Assembly (NCBI GenBank): GCA_021780015.1
Contig: JAJXZN010000218.1
Coordinates: 1,564-12,890 of the forward strand
Source: Pseudomonadota bacterium
GTDB taxonomy: Bacteria > Pseudomonadota > Alphaproteobacteria > Rhizobiales > Beijerinckiaceae
Length of the DNA: 11,327 bases
Reading direction: 5' to 3'
The notes beneath the pieces were generated by a model. It had not been told where the DNA came from and made no database searches. It saw only the letters and a program-made list of their open reading frames with translations. Made by a program: the position numbers and the translations under genes. This document shows, one piece after another, positions 464 through 11,327 of this stretch. Each line of letters starts with the position of its first letter. The stretch's first letter is position 1.

Positions 464-667
464 TCAGTGTTTTCCGCCCGGATAGCGCGCCGCCCAGCGT
501 CTCCAATGCGTGGGTCGAACCCGAATCAGGTCTCCGGTCAGCGCATTACGCCAGCCTTTCGCCGTCAGGCGACAAGGAAAGACGAGAGCATGAACCTCGC
601 GGCCTTCGATCACGCAGATTTCGAGATCGCAATCGTAAGGTGCTTTATCAATCGGGGCCCATTCCAT
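464..667 (-). CDS. Conserved hypothetical protein, 67 aa
   Basis: This small, probably cytoplasmic protein begins M-E-W-A-P-I-D-K-A-P. It has a middle V-H-A-L-V-F-P-C-R segment followed by G-W, and a P-T-H-W-R-R-W motif near the C-terminus. I recall this pattern (W-x-P-I in the first residues, HALxFPC, PTHWR-x-W) from short hypothetical proteins common in Rhizobiales; no function is known to me. The start at 667 is chosen because GAGGA sits 8 nt before the ATG. An upstream ATG at 691 and a TTG at 712 are in frame but have no ribosome binding site. A one-mismatch FNR/FixK-type site lies at 767-780, which would leave a leader of about 65 nt if it works as a class II site. The paralogue-family gene 810-1022 lies just upstream on the same strand. 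Confidence 0.7.
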   Translation of the reverse strand: MEWAPIDKAPYDCDLEICVIEGREVHALVFPCRLTAKGWRNALTGDLIRVRPTHWRRWAARYPGGKH

Positions 668-766: not shown

Positions 767-780
767 TTGAGAGAGGTCAA
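767..780 (-). promoter_or_regulatory. Weak FNR/FixK-type operator candidate
   Basis: On the minus strand this reads TTGAC-CTCT-CTCAA, one mismatch from TTGAY-N4-RTCAA. It lies 30 nt past the stop of 810-1022 and about 100 nt ahead of the ATG at 667. No convincing -10 box is seen at the class II distance, so this is the weakest site of the series. Confidence 0.3.
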
Positions 781-809
781 TTCATTCTGACCTTAGAAAA
801 AATTTCGCT

Positions 810-1022
810 CTAGCCGCCCTCATGTCCCTCCTCGCCGCCGGCGCCAATTATGGGATTTCGGCGCCTCGGCGCTGCAAGATCGGCGAGCTTGGACTCTTCC
901 GAAGCCAGAAGCCTTTCGACGGTTGCTCGGGTCTCGTCATCGAGCGGTGTTTTGAGGATCTGCTTGTAATGCCTAATATTCAGCTCGGCTATTTGGCGAG
1001 GACTCGTGAATTCGTCGGACAT
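810..1022 (-). CDS. Small conserved protein, 70 aa (paralogue A)
   Basis: The protein begins MSDEFTSPRQIAELNI and continues with a helical segment containing K-T-P-L-D-D-E-T-R-A-T-V-E-R-L-L-A-S-E-E. It ends in a basic then Gly/Glu-rich tail (A-P-R-R-R-N-P, then G-G-E-E-G-H-E-G-G). It is clearly homologous to 3618-3803: about 45 aligned residues share the P-R-x-I-A-E-L-N-I, T-P-L-D and T-R-A-T-V-E-R-L-L motifs. No signal peptide or membrane segment is present, so it is probably a cytoplasmic, mostly helical protein. I do not know its function. The ATG at 1022 is supported by the homology start shared with the paralogue and by a GGGAAAGG sequence just upstream; the same frame stays open to 1403, but that part overlaps the regulator gene. 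It is divergent from the Crp/Fnr gene, with a perfect FNR/FixK box between them. Confidence 0.75.
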   Translation of the reverse strand: MSDEFTSPRQIAELNIRHYKQILKTPLDDETRATVERLLASEESKLADLAAPRRRNPIIGAGGEEGHEGG

Positions 1023-1101
1023 GCCGCCTTTCCCACCGGAAACATGCTCCATTGAAGCCCGAATGCGCCACGGGCCGCCATCGGATTGGGTCGCCGAATT
1101 T

Positions 1102-1143
1102 TTGATTGGGATCAAGTTTTCGGTCGAAATCCGAAGGCATAAA
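1102..1143 (+). promoter_or_regulatory. Perfect FNR/FixK box and class II promoter of the Crp/Fnr gene
   Basis: TTGAT-TGGG-ATCAA at 1102-1115 is a perfect match to the FNR/FixK consensus. A CATAAA hexamer at 1138-1143 lies 22 nt after the box, exactly where the -10 element of a class II FNR promoter (box centred at -41.5) should be. Transcription would start near 1150, 23 nt before the ATG of the regulator. This suggests autoregulation or control by another FNR/FixK protein. The same palindrome could act on the divergent gene 810-1022, but no good -10 is seen on that side. Confidence 0.75.
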
Positions 1144-1172
1144 ATTCCCGAGGCAGCACCGGAGGCAAGCAA

Positions 1173-1931
1173 ATGGCGGCAGTCGCCAATCGCATCGGCG
1201 GGCCGCAAATTTATGCGGCTCACCCATGGGTGCCGGGAAACCCGGAAAAAGGCGTTCGCCATCAATTGCTGAGCGACGATGAGCGCGCGCGGCTCGCCAA
1301 GATCGCATCCATCACCCGTTTCAAGAAAGGCGATGCGATCTACGCCGAAGGCGACAAGGCTGATGCGGTATTCAACATCATAAGCGGCGTGGTCATCACT
1401 CACCGTAAAGCCGGTGACATCGATTATGTGGCTTCATTCCTTTACCCTGGCGATTTATTCGGCCTGTCCGAAGAGGGGTGCTACAGCAATGCTGCAAGGG
1501 CCGCGACTCCTGTAGTCGCCTACAAAATGCCCCTGGCAGCAGTCCGGCGCGCGTTGGACAGTGACGCTCATCTCGATGTCAATGTCATTATCAAGCTTTG
1601 CGAGGAACTCCGCGAAGCACAGCGCCATGCTCTCCTTCTCGCCCAAAGGAAAGCGACGACGCGGCTGGCGATGTTCCTCGACCTGCAGGAACATCTACAG
1701 ATCTGGCGTGGAGAGTCAGCGCCGGAAATTTACTTGCCGATGAATTTTTCTGCCATCGCCGCTTATCTCGCCATGTCTCCTGAAACGCTTAGTCGTGCAT
1801 TCCGGACGATGACGCTGGATAAGGTCGTTGCTTTCCGCAATCGGCATCACGTTAAAATTCTGAACCGAGAATTGTTTGACCGGCTTGTCGCCGATTGGCG
1901 AGGCGCAAGCACCGGCGACGCCATGCGCTAG
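1173..1931 (+). CDS. Crp/Fnr-family transcriptional regulator
   Basis: A 252-aa one-component regulator. Residues ~33-150 form the cyclic-nucleotide-type beta-roll sensor (F-K-K-G-D-A-I-Y-A-E-G-D, then I-I-S-G-V-V, then Y-P-G-D-L-F-G-L), followed by the long dimerisation helix (~133-160). A C-terminal winged helix-turn-helix (~190-240) carries P-E-T-L-S-R: E204, S207 and R208 match the E-x-x-S-R residues with which FNR/FixK proteins read TTGAT half-sites. The N-terminus has no cysteine cluster; the only cysteines are C103 and C143, so it is not a classical [4Fe-4S] FNR oxygen sensor and is more FixK-like. The canonical R-x-S cAMP-binding residues of CRP are not apparent. The ATG has GGAGG 7 nt upstream. 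The promoter carries a perfect FNR/FixK box, and similar boxes precede most neighbouring small genes, which are plausible targets. Family assignment is firm; fixK versus another subgroup cannot be settled here. Confidence 0.92.
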   Translation: MAAVANRIGGPQIYAAHPWVPGNPEKGVRHQLLSDDERARLAKIASITRFKKGDAIYAEGDKADAVFNIISGVVITHRKAGDIDYVASFLYPGDLFGLSEEGCYSNAARAATPVVAYKMPLAAVRRALDSDAHLDVNVIIKLCEELREAQRHALLLAQRKATTRLAMFLDLQEHLQIWRGESAPEIYLPMNFSAIAAYLAMSPETLSRAFRTMTLDKVVAFRNRHHVKILNRELFDRLVADWRGASTGDAMR

Positions 1932-2056
1932 CCATGCTCGCCCTATGCACATTCGCCGTCGCGGGCAAAATGACAAGGGGGCTACGGCCCGCGGAATCGA
2001 TCCGCGCGCCGAGCCTCGCTTCTCTTCGCGTGCCTAGCGCCGAAAGACCGTCCGGC

Positions 2057-2284
2057 TCAGTAATAGCGCGCGCAGATATGTCCATGCCAGCGTAGACACC
2101 GGCGCGTTTGCCGGATCGTCGTCCTGGCAACACAGACGCCGTGGACCCGCGTCCTTCCCGGGCCGCATCCCCAGGCGACATGCGTGACCATGCCGTCCAT
2201 CTGCGGAGCAGGCGCGCGCGTCATCGCCTCGCCCGACGTCGAAATGGCTAAGGCCACAGCAACAACAGAAAGCAGCTTAAGCAT
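2057..2284 (-). CDS. Small secreted Cys-containing protein, 75 aa
   Basis: The N-terminus (M-L-K-L-L-S-V-V-A-V-A-L-A-I-S-T-S-G-E-A) is a typical signal peptide ending near residue 20, so the mature protein of ~55 aa is probably periplasmic. The mature part contains W-G-C-G-P-G, then G-V-C-V, R-C-L and I-C-A: four cysteines that could form two disulfides. The W-G-C-G-P-G segment resembles the GCG-type motif of short exported proteins common in Rhizobiales; no function is known. The ATG at 2284 is preceded by a very strong purine-rich ribosome binding site (GGAGGAGGGAGGA). No FNR/FixK box lies directly upstream. It may be co-transcribed with the Gly-rich gene 2471-2914, whose stop is 186 nt upstream, although a hairpin lies between them. 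Confidence 0.72.
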   Translation of the reverse strand: MLKLLSVVAVALAISTSGEAMTRAPAPQMDGMVTHVAWGCGPGRTRVHGVCVARTTIRQTRRCLRWHGHICARYY

Positions 2285-2377
2285 TCCTCCCTCCTCCTAC
2301 CGTTTAAAGCGAACCCAAGCAGGGATTGAAATTTTGACGGCCTCGGCGAAAACGAGCCTCCGGCACGATCATCGAAG

Positions 2378-2413
2378 CGTTGGAGAAGTCCGCATCACCG
2401 GACGTCTCCAACG
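2378..2413 (-). terminator. Long hairpin between two minus-strand genes, possible terminator
   Basis: CGTTGGAGA (2378-2386) pairs perfectly with TCTCCAACG (2405-2413). After one mismatch GTCCG (2388-2392) pairs with CGGAC (2399-2403), with a 6-nt loop. It lies 57 nt past the stop of the Gly-rich gene (2471) and ahead of 2057-2284. No T-run follows on either strand, so it may be a partial terminator or an mRNA-stabilising structure. Confidence 0.4.
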
Positions 2414-2470
2414 TCATTGACCAACAACCCGCTTCTGATCGCAGGCTCAAACCTGCCCATGCCTCCGAAC

Positions 2471-2914
2471 TCAATACGGGTACTGGCCTGGGCAGACCCA
2501 CCGGCTGTAGCGATCATAATAGCAGCCATTGTTGTAGTAGCCGGCGGCGGCGCCGGCAGCGGCACCGGCCGCGGCAGCTCCCGCGGCACCCCAGCCATAA
2601 CGGCCATACCCATAACGGCCATAACCGTAACGTCCGGCATAGTGGCCACCATGACCGTACCGACCCCCGTAGCGCATGCCGCCGCCGTGGACCCCATAGC
2701 CGCGATGCGCCACGGAGCCGCGTCCGCCGTAGCTCCGTCCGGCGAACCCGCCACCGCGGCCGCCGCCGCCGCGGCCGCCGCGCGCAAGCTGGATGTCCGA
2801 CGCATACGCAGCTGCATTGGCAAGATCCGGCAAGACGGGCATGGCCGCAGCTGAAGCAAAATCAGCGGATCCCAACAAACAAGCGACCGCCATAGGAAGA
2901 ATTGTCTTGAACAT
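2471..2914 (-). CDS. Exported Gly/Tyr/Arg-rich low-complexity protein, 147 aa
   Basis: Residues 1-24 form a signal peptide (M-F-K-T-I-L-P then a hydrophobic core, ending S-A-A-A). The mature part is low complexity: an R-G-G-R-G-G-G-G block at ~45-57, tandem G-R-Y-G-Y segments at ~94-108, a Gly/Ala zipper-like stretch at ~109-125 that could insert in or pack at a membrane, and a C-terminal tail Y-Y-N-N-G-C-Y-Y-D-R-Y-S-R-W-V-C-P-G with two cysteines. Such exported Gly-rich proteins are frequent in Rhizobiales; their role is unknown, with cell envelope or surface location likely. The start at 2914 has GGAGGT 6 nt upstream. A one-mismatch FNR/FixK box at 2970-2983 sits at class II distance from a predicted start ~21 nt ahead of the ATG. 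The repetitive composition makes other frames look open, but only this one has a signal peptide and a ribosome binding site. Confidence 0.78.
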   Translation of the reverse strand: MFKTILPMAVACLLGSADFASAAAMPVLPDLANAAAYASDIQLARGGRGGGGRGGGFAGRSYGGRGSVAHRGYGVHGGGMRYGGRYGHGGHYAGRYGYGRYGYGRYGWGAAGAAAAGAAAGAAAGYYNNGCYYDRYSRWVCPGQYPY

Positions 2915-2969
2915 GACTCACCTCCCAATTGCTGCTGCGCAGAAATTAACCGGGAGTTGTGGGATGGCC

Positions 2970-2983
2970 TTGATCTGTATCAG
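2970..2983 (-). promoter_or_regulatory. FNR/FixK-type operator candidate upstream of the Gly-rich gene
   Basis: TTGAT-CTGT-ATCAG on the plus strand, one mismatch from the consensus. Read on the minus strand, a class II start would lie near 2935, giving a ~21-nt leader that includes the strong ribosome binding site of 2471-2914. The AT-rich stretch GTTAATTTCT (2941-2950) occupies the -10 region. Confidence 0.5.
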
Positions 2984-3084
2984 CCGGCCGCAAATTTTTC
3001 TCCCGGCTCAAGCTGCGGCGCCGTACGGCCGGTAAACGGCCCGAACAAAACTACGCTACATCGATGCAGCGCCGCCTCGCCTTT

Positions 3085-3318
3085 TCAATGCGATGTTTCT
3101 TGTTGCAAGGGCGCCGGCGGCGGCGCCGGTTTCTTGCGGGGCGCGGCCGGCGGCAAGGGCGCTTGCGGAACCGCCCCATTCTCTAGCCCCGTAGGCGGAA
3201 GCTCAAGACGCGACGTCGCCCGGGACGCCGAAGGCGCGTCGGCGCGAACGGCCTGTTGCGCGACGGCGCCGAACGATTGCGAGACAAATAAAGCGATCGC
3301 CAAAAAAACAATTCGCAT
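3085..3318 (-). CDS. Small exported Pro/Ala-rich protein, 77 aa
   Basis: The protein begins M-R-I-V-F-L-A-I-A-L-F-V-S-Q-S-F-G-A-V-A-Q, a clear signal peptide with a likely cleavage after A-V-A near residue 20. The mature ~57 residues are Ala/Pro-rich with a P-R-K-K-P-A-P-P-P-A-P segment near the C-terminus. There is no catalytic motif and no cysteine. It may be a periplasmic, unstructured or envelope-associated peptide; the function is unknown. The ATG at 3318 is chosen because GGAGA lies 5 nt upstream and it begins the signal peptide; an in-frame ATG at 3342 would put eight extra residues before the signal peptide. A one-mismatch FNR/FixK site at 3415-3428 lies ~97 nt upstream. Confidence 0.68.
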   Translation of the reverse strand: MRIVFLAIALFVSQSFGAVAQQAVRADAPSASRATSRLELPPTGLENGAVPQAPLPPAAPRKKPAPPPAPLQQETSH

Positions 3319-3414
3319 CGCAGTCTCCGAAAAACCGCACAAAAAAAACGCGCCGCGACGTGAGACGATTTCCCGCCGGAAACATTACGCTGCCGAGAAT
3401 CCGGCGCGCTCAAA

Positions 3415-3428
3415 ATGACATAGGTCAA
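3415..3428 (-). promoter_or_regulatory. FNR/FixK-type operator candidate upstream of 3085-3318
   Basis: On the minus strand this reads TTGAC-CTAT-GTCAT, one mismatch from TTGAY-N4-RTCAA. A class II start would lie near 3380 and give a ~62-nt leader for the small exported protein gene. The -10 region is not clear; TAATGT at 3382-3387 is a few bases too far. Confidence 0.45.
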
Positions 3429-3443
3429 AGCCATTATGCGAAG

Positions 3444-3524
3444 CGAAAACGGCCCCTTCTGAGAAGGGGCCGTCTACGCGCGTAGAATATGCAGCGAATG
3501 CAGACCAATAAATTCGTCCTGCAC
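3444..3524 (-). ncRNA. Candidate small RNA (~80 nt) under an FNR/FixK box
   Basis: A perfect operator (3561-3574), a GATAAC -10-like hexamer (minus strand of 3531-3536) 24 nt after it, and a strong intrinsic terminator (3449-3473) together define a transcript of about 80 nt in a gap without a recognised gene. Inside it, two TGCA blocks could form a short stem and a 12-bp palindrome CTACGCGCGTAG (3474-3485) sits directly ahead of the terminator. Alternatives are the 3' part of the mRNA of 3618-3803, or a tiny gene: an open frame of 27 codons begins at GTG 3557 and its TAG (3474-3476) lies just ahead of the terminator, but it has no ribosome binding site. Prediction only. Confidence 0.35.
3449..3473 (-). 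terminator. Strong intrinsic terminator
   Basis: ACGGCCCCTTCT (3449-3460) is the exact reverse complement of AGAAGGGGCCGT (3462-3473), with one base between them. In practice this is a GGCCCC stem with extra A-T pairs closing a small loop. On the minus strand the stem is followed by GTTTTCG, so it ends leftward transcription, either from 3618-3803 (stop 145 nt away) or from the candidate small RNA. Confidence 0.75.
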
Positions 3525-3560
3525 GCGAAGGTTATCTTGCCCAGTGGAATGCGGCACGAA

Positions 3561-3574
3561 TTGACACACGTCAA
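3561..3574 (-). promoter_or_regulatory. Perfect FNR/FixK box in the gap 3319-3617
   Basis: TTGAC-ACAC-GTCAA is a perfect palindromic match to the FixK/FNR consensus. No gene starts at class II distance on the plus strand. On the minus strand GATAAC (3531-3536) lies close to the expected -10 position and leads to a transcript ending at the terminator 3449-3473. Confidence 0.6.
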
Positions 3575-3617
3575 CGATGGCTAAGCTGAGCCTGATCGCC
3601 TCCAGGGCTTAGTCCTG

Positions 3618-3803
3618 CTATTCCCGCACACGGGGCGCCGGAGATTCAATATTCGGCAATTGCGCCAGCTTCTGCCGTTCTTCTACGAGAAGACGTTCGA
3701 CGGTGGCCCGAGTTAATTCATCGAGCGGCGTGCGCAGTAGGCGCGTAAAATGCTCAATATTGAGCTCGGCAATCTCGCGGGGATTCGTGAAGTCGTCCGG
3801 CAT
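3618..3803 (-). CDS. Small conserved protein, 61 aa (paralogue B)
   Basis: The protein begins MPDDFTNPREIAELNIEHF, continues with R-T-P-L-D-E-L-T-R-A-T-V-E-R-L-L-V-E-E, and ends after a short Pro-containing tail. It is a paralogue of 810-1022: the two align without gaps over the first ~48 residues, and the DNA around both start codons is also similar. It is predicted to be helical and cytoplasmic, with no known function. The ATG at 3803 is set by the homology start. There is no Shine-Dalgarno sequence before it, and the near-perfect FNR/FixK box at 3840-3853 would place a class II start about 2 nt before the ATG, so a leaderless mRNA is possible. The frame stays open to 4112, but the extension has no homology to the paralogue and shows no coding character. 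Confidence 0.72.
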   Translation of the reverse strand: MPDDFTNPREIAELNIEHFTRLLRTPLDELTRATVERLLVEERQKLAQLPNIESPAPRVRE

Positions 3804-3839
3804 GTGATGCGCCAAGATGAGCCCAACGCTTCGGCAGAT

Positions 3840-3853
3840 ATGATCCTGATCAA
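3840..3853 (-). promoter_or_regulatory. FNR/FixK-type operator candidate upstream of paralogue B
   Basis: On the minus strand this reads TTGAT-CAGG-ATCAT, one mismatch from consensus. Its centre is 43 nt ahead of the ATG at 3803. No strong -10 hexamer is visible; CATCTT is the best candidate. The rest of the gap up to 4084 shows no other feature I can support. Confidence 0.45.
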
Positions 3854-7553: not shown

Positions 7554-7664
7554 TCCGAGGTCCTCGATTGAGACAAGCTCTTCCCGGCGGGGATGAGAGA
7601 GCCGCATCGCCGTCGGGCATGCGACCGCCATCGAGATAGGAATGGACGCGGCAGTTTGTTAGGT

Positions 7665-7919
7665 TCAGCTCATGTTCAATGCCTGCATGTAGAGGTCGAG
7701 AATCGCCTCCATCTCCTTGCGTTCGGCATGATCCTGCTTGCGGATTTTGACAATCTGCCGCACCGCCTTCGAGTCGAAGCCGCGTCCCTTCAATTCCGCG
7801 TAAACATCGCGGATATCGTCCGAGAGCGCCTTCTTTTCTTCCTCGAGCCGTTCGATCCGCTCGACAAATTGCTTCAATTCCTCGCCCGCGACGCCGGTCT
7901 CGGCGATATCTGCCGTCAT
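7665..7919 (-). CDS. gapR: GapR nucleoid-associated protein (DUF2312)
   Basis: An 84-aa protein of the GapR/DUF2312 family, an essential chromatin protein in Caulobacter that binds overtwisted, AT-rich DNA ahead of replication and transcription and stimulates type II topoisomerases. The sequence is almost entirely helical. Residues ~13-45 form a coiled coil ([16 protein letters not shown]), followed by the family signature [26 protein letters not shown] and a C-terminal helix with L-D-L-Y-M-Q-A-L. Lys/Arg residues along the helices fit DNA contact by a clamp-like tetramer. Start at 7919 with an AAGG ~9 nt upstream, a weak but usable site. Length matches the family. It lies 130 nt after the FGase gene on the same strand. 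Confidence 0.93.
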
Positions 7920-9643: not shown

Positions 9644-11062
9644 ATGCGACGGCTGCGCCGCTGCAAGATCGTCGCGACTTTGGGTCCGGCGACGGCTCAA
9701 CGTTCTGCCATAGCCGATCTGTTTCGCGCCGGCGCCGACGTCTTCCGCATCAACATGAGCCATGCAAGTCATGACGACATGCGTGAGCGCGTCCAGATGA
9801 TCCGCTCGCTCGAGCACGAGTTCGGCCGGCCGATTGCGATCCTTCTCGATCTGCAAGGGCCGAAACTGCGCATCGGTCTCTTCAAGGAGGGCGCGGTCGA
9901 ACTGAAACGCGGCGAGATTTTCGTGTTCGATTCCGATCCGACGCCCGGCGATGCGAGCCGTGTGTACCTGCCGCATCCGGAGATCCTCCAGGCGCTGCAG
10001 CCGGGCCACAATGTGTTGGTCGACGACGGCAAGGTACGCCTGCACATCACCGAAGCGTCGCCGAAGCACGCCGTAGCTGTGGTCGATGTCAGCGGCCGCG
10101 TCTCCAATCGCAAAGGCGTCAGCCTGCCCGACACCGAAATTCCGGTCGCTTCGATGACCGCCAAGGATCGCGACGATCTGCGCGCCGGTCTTGAGGCGGG
10201 CGTCGATTGGATCGCCGTCTCCTTCGTGCAACGCGCCGAAGACGTCGCCGAGGTCAAGAAGGTCGCCGGCAACCGGGCCCTGGTCCTGGCCAAGATCGAA
10301 AAGCCGCAGGCGATTTCGCGTCTCGAAGAAATCATGGAAGTCTCCGACGCCTTCATGGTGGCGCGCGGCGACCTCGGCGTCGAAATGCCGCTTGAGAAAG
10401 TCCCCGGCTTGCAGAAGCGCATCGGCCGCATCGCGCGCCGGCTCGGCAAGCCGGTCATTGTTGCGACCCAGATGCTCGAATCGATGATCGCGTTGCCGGT
10501 GCCGACCCGCGCCGAAGTCTCCGACGTCGCCTCGGCCTTGTTCGAGGGTGCCGATGCGATCATGCTCTCGGCGGAAAGCGCCTCCGGCCGCTATCCGGTC
10601 GAGGCGGTGGCAACGATGAACAAGATTGCCGAGGAGGTCGAGCGCGATTCCTTCTATCGGCAGATCATCAATGCGCAACGGCCGGCGCCCGAGGCCACCG
10701 TCGCCGACGCCATCGCCACGGCGGCGCGGGACGTGGCCGAAACATTGGATTTGAAGGCGATCGTCGCCTGGACGTCATCGGGCTCGACCGCCTTCCGCAT
10801 CGCCCGCGAGCGGCCGGAGCCGCCGGTGCTCGCCTTGACGCCGAACCGCGACACTGCCCGCCGCCTGGCGCTTGTCTGGGGCGTCCATGCCGTCGTCACG
10901 GAGGACGCGCAGGATGTCGATGACATGACGGATCGCGCCTGCGTCATCGCCGCCGCCGAAGGGTTCGCGACGCCCGCCGAGCGGATCATCATCGTTGCCG
11001 GCGTGCCCTTCGGCTTGCCCGGCGCGACCAATATGGTGCGGATCGCTTCGATCGAGAAATAG
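9644..11062 (+). CDS. pyk: Pyruvate kinase
   Basis: A 472-aa cytosolic glycolytic enzyme converting phosphoenolpyruvate and ADP to pyruvate and ATP. Full length, with all family landmarks: K-I-V-A-T-L-G-P-A-T at the start, F-R-I-N-M-S-H (R35, N37), L-L-D-L-Q-G-P-K-L-R-I-G (D69, K74), the small B domain (~residues 75-160), A-K-I-E-K (catalytic K217, metal ligand E219), A-R-G-D-L-G-V-E (metal-binding D242), A-T-Q-M-L-E-S (T275), and M-L-S-A-E-S-A-S-G-R-Y-P. The C-terminal domain (~350-472) has W-T-S-S-G-S-T-A and ends near G-A-T-N-M-V-R-I, where allosteric effectors bind in related enzymes. The ATG at 9644 follows GAGGAG by a few bases. It follows DUF1036 on the same strand; a weak terminator and the 61-bp repeat array lie downstream. 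Confidence 0.97.
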   Translation: MRRLRRCKIVATLGPATAQRSAIADLFRAGADVFRINMSHASHDDMRERVQMIRSLEHEFGRPIAILLDLQGPKLRIGLFKEGAVELKRGEIFVFDSDPTPGDASRVYLPHPEILQALQPGHNVLVDDGKVRLHITEASPKHAVAVVDVSGRVSNRKGVSLPDTEIPVASMTAKDRDDLRAGLEAGVDWIAVSFVQRAEDVAEVKKVAGNRALVLAKIEKPQAISRLEEIMEVSDAFMVARGDLGVEMPLEKVPGLQKRIGRIARRLGKPVIVATQMLESMIALPVPTRAEVSDVASALFEGADAIMLSAESASGRYPVEAVATMNKIAEEVERDSFYRQIINAQRPAPEATVADAIATAARDVAETLDLKAIVAWTSSGSTAFRIARERPEPPVLALTPNRDTARRLALVWGVHAVVTEDAQDVDDMTDRACVIAAAEGFATPAERIIIVAGVPFGLPGATNMVRIASIEK

Positions 11063-11067
11063 CCGCC

Positions 11068-11107
11068 AAAGCGTCGGACGTCCAAATCGCTCGGCGCTTT
11101 TATGTTT
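11068..11107 (+). terminator. Weak terminator candidate after pyk
   Basis: AAAGCG (11068-11073) pairs with CGCTTT (11095-11100) and is followed by a T-rich stretch TTATGTTT. The stem is short and the loop long. The repeat array that follows is itself hairpin-forming and might end transcription instead. Confidence 0.35.
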
Positions 11108-11108
11108 G

Positions 11109-11312
11109 CACTTTTCGGTCCGATGCTTTGGTCGTTCCCATCGCATCGGATCGTCCGAAAACCGCTTCACACTTTTCGGTCCGATGCTTTGGTCGTTTCC
11201 ATCGCATCGGATCGTCCGAAAACCGCTTCACACTTTTCGGTCCGATGCTTTGGTCGTTCCCATCGCATCGGATCGTCCGAAAACCGCTTCACACTTTTCG
11301 GTCCGATGCTTT
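11109..11312. repeat. Tandem 61-bp hairpin-forming repeat, 3.3 copies
   Basis: Units at 11109-11169, 11170-11230 and 11231-11291 are each 61 bp and nearly identical (unit 2 has TTTCC where units 1 and 3 have TTCCC); a fourth copy breaks off at 11312. Each unit contains CTTTTCGGTCCGATGC and, in inverted orientation, GCATCGG and CCGAAAA. The 45-bp cores 11143-11187, 11204-11248 and 11265-11309 can fold as GCATCGG...CCGAAAA - CCGCTTCACAC - TTTTCGG...CCGATGC hairpins. The GAAGCGGTTTT/GTGTGAAGCGG style centre resembles widespread intergenic palindromes of Rhizobiales. The period is not a multiple of three and no coding sense is apparent. Confidence 0.92.
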
Positions 11313-11327
11313 AGATATCGCGGCCTT

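Follow-up and report, generated by a model that had tools for sequence, protein, structure and literature searches.

Conserved FNR/FixK-type boxes point to two small-protein families as probable members of a low-oxygen regulon in Methylovirgula

Introduction

Why are six FNR/FixK-type boxes gathered around a single Crp/Fnr-family gene in an alphaproteobacterial genome? The boxes lie in a 3,087-bp stretch (767..3853), here called the island, of contig JAJXZN010000218.1 from an assembly (GCA_021780015.1) of Methylovirgula, a soil bacterium of the family Beijerinckiaceae. Positions are those of the window, which is the whole stretch of DNA that was analysed (11.3 kb). An earlier note on this DNA had read the cluster as a low-oxygen regulon of unknown small proteins, three of them exported, under the control of the encoded Crp/Fnr protein or of another FNR/FixK. 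The box motif, TTGAY-N4-RTCAA, is that of the FixLJ-FixK/FnrN regulon of Alphaproteobacteria. In the available part of one study the anaerobox TTGAT-N4-ATCAA is given as bound by FixK and FnrN (PMC7888657), and the available part of a second likewise contains the FnrN/FixK motif (PMC4999443). Here we report that four of the six boxes belong to a conserved cassette with the order box, gene A, box, gene B, in which A and B are two families of small proteins. On the strength of sequence comparison we consider it quite probable that the boxes are anaeroboxes of a FixK/FnrN-type regulator and that the A/B cassette is under low-oxygen control.

Results

Number and density of the boxes

Counting as a site any match with at most one mismatch, we recovered all six proposed boxes. 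Two are perfect (1102..1115 and 3561..3574) and four carry one mismatch (767..780, 2970..2983, 3415..3428 and 3840..3853), while no seventh site was found anywhere in the window. The box at 1102, which lies between two divergent genes, has no assigned strand and the other five are placed on the minus strand. Shuffled versions of the window contain a mean of 0.69 sites and none of 200 shuffles reaches six, in agreement with the excess over chance that had been claimed.

The assembly of the window's own genome is 60.45% complete, with 1,694,242 bases, and contains 168 sites, of which 11 are perfect and two of those 11 are in the window. The pattern read backwards gives 14 sites. At the genome rate, taken from the whole assembly rather than from intergenic DNA alone, the 3,087-bp stretch is predicted to contain 0.31 sites compared with the six observed (Poisson P ~9e-7, or ~5e-4 once multiplied by the number of 3,087-bp stretches in the genome), so the density here is not the same as genome-wide.

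A conserved cassette of two boxes and two small genes

In the first cassette of the window, box 1 (1102..1115) lies between the first copy of gene A (810..1022, minus strand, 70 aa), at 86.5 bp, and the divergent Crp gene, at 64.5 bp. Box 2 (767..780) follows, with its centre 106.5 bp before the ATG (667) of gene B (464..667, minus strand, 67 aa). The second cassette begins with a box 1 (3840..3853) centred 43.5 bp before the ATG of a second copy of A (3618..3803, minus strand, 61 aa) and keeps box 2 (3561..3574), with gene B absent; the assembled part of the genome carries one B only. Most boxes, as the earlier note states, face a small gene, but the box at 3561 directly faces no visible gene. 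It sits 43 bp past the stop codon of 3803-3618, a small gene, at the position occupied in relatives by the B promoter box.

Proteins of the A family have approximately 60–70 aa and a conserved I-A-E-L-N-I core, while those of the B family have approximately 62–90 aa and, in an alignment of 19 rows, invariant W, A-P, F, C and P-x-H-W-R-x-W positions. A is predicted to fold as a two-helix hairpin (mean pLDDT 77.8) and B as a small all-beta domain (mean pLDDT 89). Fold searches with both gave nothing convincing, the A and B proteins scanned matched no Pfam family at the cut-off, and four B proteins matched none at E up to 1. In a large protein set 259 B-like and 159 A-like proteins passed E 0.001, and a search of 397 genomes of the order found 15 with B at E 1e-8 or better, the window's own genome included. 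A 240-aa protein (L219:7245-7967) opens with an A-like stretch, appears PAS-like by eye and is convergent with a B gene.

The sister genome G004 repeats the order Crp, box, A, box, B with both boxes perfect, including one at the position equivalent to 1102 (L052:6249), and the box at 767 matches in place the boxes of L052–L055, L107 and L177. Further cassettes were found in G004 (L053) and in G007, a second sister genome of the same genus (L054 and L055), none with a Crp gene in the fetched stretch. A fourth, at a contig edge of G007 (L177), has an apparent A-gene tail, recognised by eye against P0013, followed by box and B. In the six cassettes measured box 2 falls 29 to 59 bp behind the A stop.

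Conservation of the boxes upstream of A and B

To compare orthologues we counted boxes within 300 bp upstream of B and within 150 bp upstream of A. Within Methylovirgula, the window's own genus, a box is kept at all seven strong B genes related to 667-464 (one of which, L177, has only 214 bp of upstream DNA) and at all six intact A genes related to 1022-810 and 3803-3618. In genus g10, where A and B are convergent neighbours, both B genes and one of the two A genes have a box.

Outside the window's own genome 18 B loci were found in the order and 17 were taken, a fragment with two stops being dropped; ten of the 17 have a box. When these are split by score, the box is present in 10 of the 11 higher-scoring loci and in none of the six lowest (Fisher P 6e-4, for a split drawn post hoc). 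The border separates two loci of nearly equal score, L223 (E 2.4e-19, poor box) and L224 (E 1.2e-18, none), and regrouping L223 changes the counts to 9/10 and 1/7. Plasmid loci have a box in two of six cases, these six having been opened from 32 records and picked for organism variety. Taking all B loci together, the upstream 300 bp contain a box in 21 of 32. Searching the same distance downstream gives a box in five of 32; in four the box stands where the next gene, an arcA homologue, begins, and in the fifth, L073, it belongs to the convergent A gene.

Promoter geometry

The word nAnnnT begins exactly 22 nt past the box in 14 of 18 B promoters, compared with a mean of 1.05 per 18 at the 39 other gaps (5 to 44). 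The 18 are those of the 21 boxed B loci that remain once L219, L222 and L223 are left out as far or weak, and the window's B is among the 14, with CAGCTT at 744-739. A box with nAnnnT at 22 nt corresponds to class II FNR promoter architecture. At seven of the 17 order-level loci, both g10 loci and two plasmid loci the chosen start codon follows a box centre by 40 to 45 nt, and B transcripts at such loci may therefore begin near the ATG.

Gene neighbourhoods in relatives

On plasmids of Rhizobium lentis, Rhizobium sp. Pop5, R. leguminosarum, Sinorhizobium sp. B11 and Mesorhizobium ciceri, B lies beside fixJ and a FixL-like kinase, where fixJ is either named in the annotation or identified from an unnamed response regulator that shares at least 80% identity with the R. 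lentis protein. In three of these five fixJ-type loci arcA follows. M. loti NZP2037 has B between pseudoazurin and ccoNOQP, with hemN near. A FixJ homologue occurs near B in seven of 17 order-level loci (at least 52% identity) and in five of six plasmid loci. Perfect boxes also stand before hemN in G004 and G007 (41.5 and 40.5 bp; gene named by eye), before hsp20-like and phaC-like genes in G007 and upstream of a hemA-like gene in G004 (by eye). Gene calls in this work are heuristic and many gene names were assigned by eye.

Discussion

A FixK/FnrN-type regulator of the cassette

From the sites, their conservation, the promoter geometry and the neighbourhoods we infer that the boxes are bound by a FixK/FnrN-type regulator that would activate transcription at low oxygen, four of them representing two copies of a box-A-box-B cassette, the second of which lacks B. 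Low oxygen would raise active FixK or FnrN, which would bind the box before B at the class II position (centre near -41.5, with the -10 element 22 nt past the box) and recruit RNA polymerase. The box common to A and Crp would act at another spacing or serve the Crp gene. The low-oxygen regulon first suggested for the island is thus well founded for A and B, with their conserved boxes, fixJ-fixL/ccoN company and class II layout, and plausible for a Gly-rich gene discussed below, but unsupported for the box at 3415.

Several observations weigh against this explanation. The A promoters show no peak at 22 nt (0/6), and the B promoters compared are partly related by descent, so that a binomial value for their 22-nt peak is too optimistic. 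Four weak B-like matches within the genus, which are without the P-x-H-W motif, have no upstream box, in a check that covered these four. Eleven of the 32 B loci are without a box within 300 bp upstream, namely six distant paralogues, four Rhizobium-type plasmid loci and L214. Many perfect boxes of G000, G004 and G007 fall inside genes. Finally, the window's own genome, as far as it is assembled, yielded no E-T-V-S-R FixK, and therefore the local Crp/Fnr protein may act in this species.

Could this neighbouring protein directly regulate a self-contained local regulon? Encoded at 1173..1931 on the plus strand (252 aa), it has cNMP-binding and Crp HTH domains, and the E-x-x-S-R recognition residues attributed to it are indeed present as E-T-L-S-R (residues 204–208). 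Its best solved match is FixK2 of Bradyrhizobium (PDB 4i2o, E 5e-17), and the N-terminal Fe-S cysteine cluster of FnrN/FNR is absent, its cysteines being at 103 and 143 only. It stands within the cluster, shares a divergent box with A in both the window and G004, and is the only E-x-x-S-R protein found in the assembled 60% of its genome, where another protein has E-x-x-T-R. Its own gene has the -10-like word TAAAAT at gap 24, which G004 does not share. The nearest orthologue, in G004, is 73% identical but has A-A-L-S-R in place of E-T-L-S-R, though the boxes there are perfect, and no Crp gene accompanies the cassettes L053, L054 and L055 within the sequence retrieved. In G007 (G007:C97) a homologue of the Crp-adjacent gene of G004 (87.6% identical) is followed directly by box and B (79%), without the 1.1-kb part containing Crp and A, and the best Crp-family match in this 88% complete genome reaches only E 1.8e-15. 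With the glutamate lost in the orthologue and box and B kept without Crp and A, the suggestion that the encoded protein is the regulator is not supported, and we consider direct local control unlikely. G004 and G007 each carry another FixK-like protein with E-T-V-S-R. Judged from these sequences, the general FixK or FnrN of the genus is the most likely regulator, and the FixK2-like protein next to the cassette may itself be one of the targets or form a local branch.

A different function for the box at 3561 would be to drive a small RNA ending at a terminator-like hairpin (3449..3473, minus strand). This box is perfect, and the hairpin, followed by a T-rich stretch, lies approximately 90 nt on and is part of a stable fold (z -4.17). 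However, a search of the other 40 genomes found no counterpart of the hairpin stretch, which also has no Rfam family, while the place of the box suits a box 2 with its B missing, making the small RNA rather improbable. NnrR/DNR-type proteins of the same superfamily are described as reading similar sites, and the boxes could respond to a different signal, nitric oxide for example. The solved structures matched by the local protein include DNR (E 3e-6), but the best is FixK2 and the neighbourhoods are those of fixLJ, arcA, ccoNOQP and hemN, so that we regard this as very unlikely. That the cluster reflects chance and base composition is hardly credible, in spite of a genome rich in such words (168 against 14 reversed) and the many perfect sites inside genes, given the excess, the fixed spacing and the conservation, the last of which counts against it for the boxes at 767, 1102 and 3840.

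Relation to known systems

With the FixLJ-FixK/FnrN regulon of Alphaproteobacteria the cassette shares not only the motif but also the class II spacing of the B promoters and, in relatives, the company of hemN, fixLJ and ccoNOQP. It differs in its targets, which are two small families without a Pfam match and of which we found no mention in the available parts of the literature on this low-oxygen regulon. The local Crp/Fnr protein resembles FixK2 as its best solved match and by keeping E-T-L-S-R, but the likeness is distant and the glutamate is missing from the G004 orthologue.

A, a predicted helical hairpin, and B, a predicted small beta domain, are in our view probably accessory proteins used when oxygen is low. 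More tentatively, and with considerable doubt, they might be feedback or tuning partners of FixL-type sensors. FixT, in the available part of PMC7078487, is a feedback inhibitor of FixL with a single receiver domain. B would be like it in being a small protein of the FixLJ/FixK circuit, but it is predicted to be all-beta, with 67 aa and no Pfam match, and the FixT-like role would thus be filled by unrelated folds.

If control by FixK or FnrN is correct, two unannotated small-protein families join the low-oxygen regulon, and the regulatory signature is strong enough to steer experiments. Regulon studies easily overlook proteins of this size. B occurs in Methylovirgula and one related genus, elsewhere in the order (Hyphomicrobiales) and on rhizobial plasmids, where it neighbours fixLJ and ccoNOQP. 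What part A and B play under microaerobic conditions, including those of root nodules, can then be put to the test.

Other genes and sites of the island and its relatives

A Gly-rich ORF (2471..2914, minus strand), exported by the look of its N-terminus, has the box at 2970..2983 centred 62.5 bp upstream, and TAATTT (2948-2943) begins 21 nt past the box, a favourable promoter geometry. Its one weak homologue in the genus (G003) has no upstream box. This gene probably belongs to the low-oxygen regulon. The box at 3415..3428, the weakest member, lies 79.5 or 103.5 bp before a small exported-looking ORF (3085..3342, minus strand), depending on whether the alternative ATG at 3318 is used. It has no good -10 element at 20–23 nt and the gene has no match in 10 other genomes of the genus; as a regulon site it is unsupported, and alone it could be chance. 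The three exported proteins of the proposed regulon are reduced to two with a box, because the exported-looking gene 2284-2057 has none within 300 bp upstream.

An A/B pair in the L072 region of G019 (to about 2,411,000) is surrounded by a larger regulatory island, with six Crp-type HTH matches at 2.383–2.411 Mb, two histidine kinases that contain PAS domains, and many boxes. A cysteine-rich Crp-type regulator with H-A-S-R occurs close to a box (L081, L101 and L002, with L164, L148 and L145). In G004 and G007 this is near hemN, whereas in the window's own genome a Kdp-like gene follows (names by eye). Sister genomes (L093, L184) have a perfect box between DUF2312-like and Old Yellow Enzyme-like genes (by eye), and in the window no box lies between the same pair of genes (compare 7571-7665). 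The end of the window (11100-11327) carries head-to-tail repeats of approximately 61 bases, and a similar stretch is present in G004 (L052 ~9783-9837).

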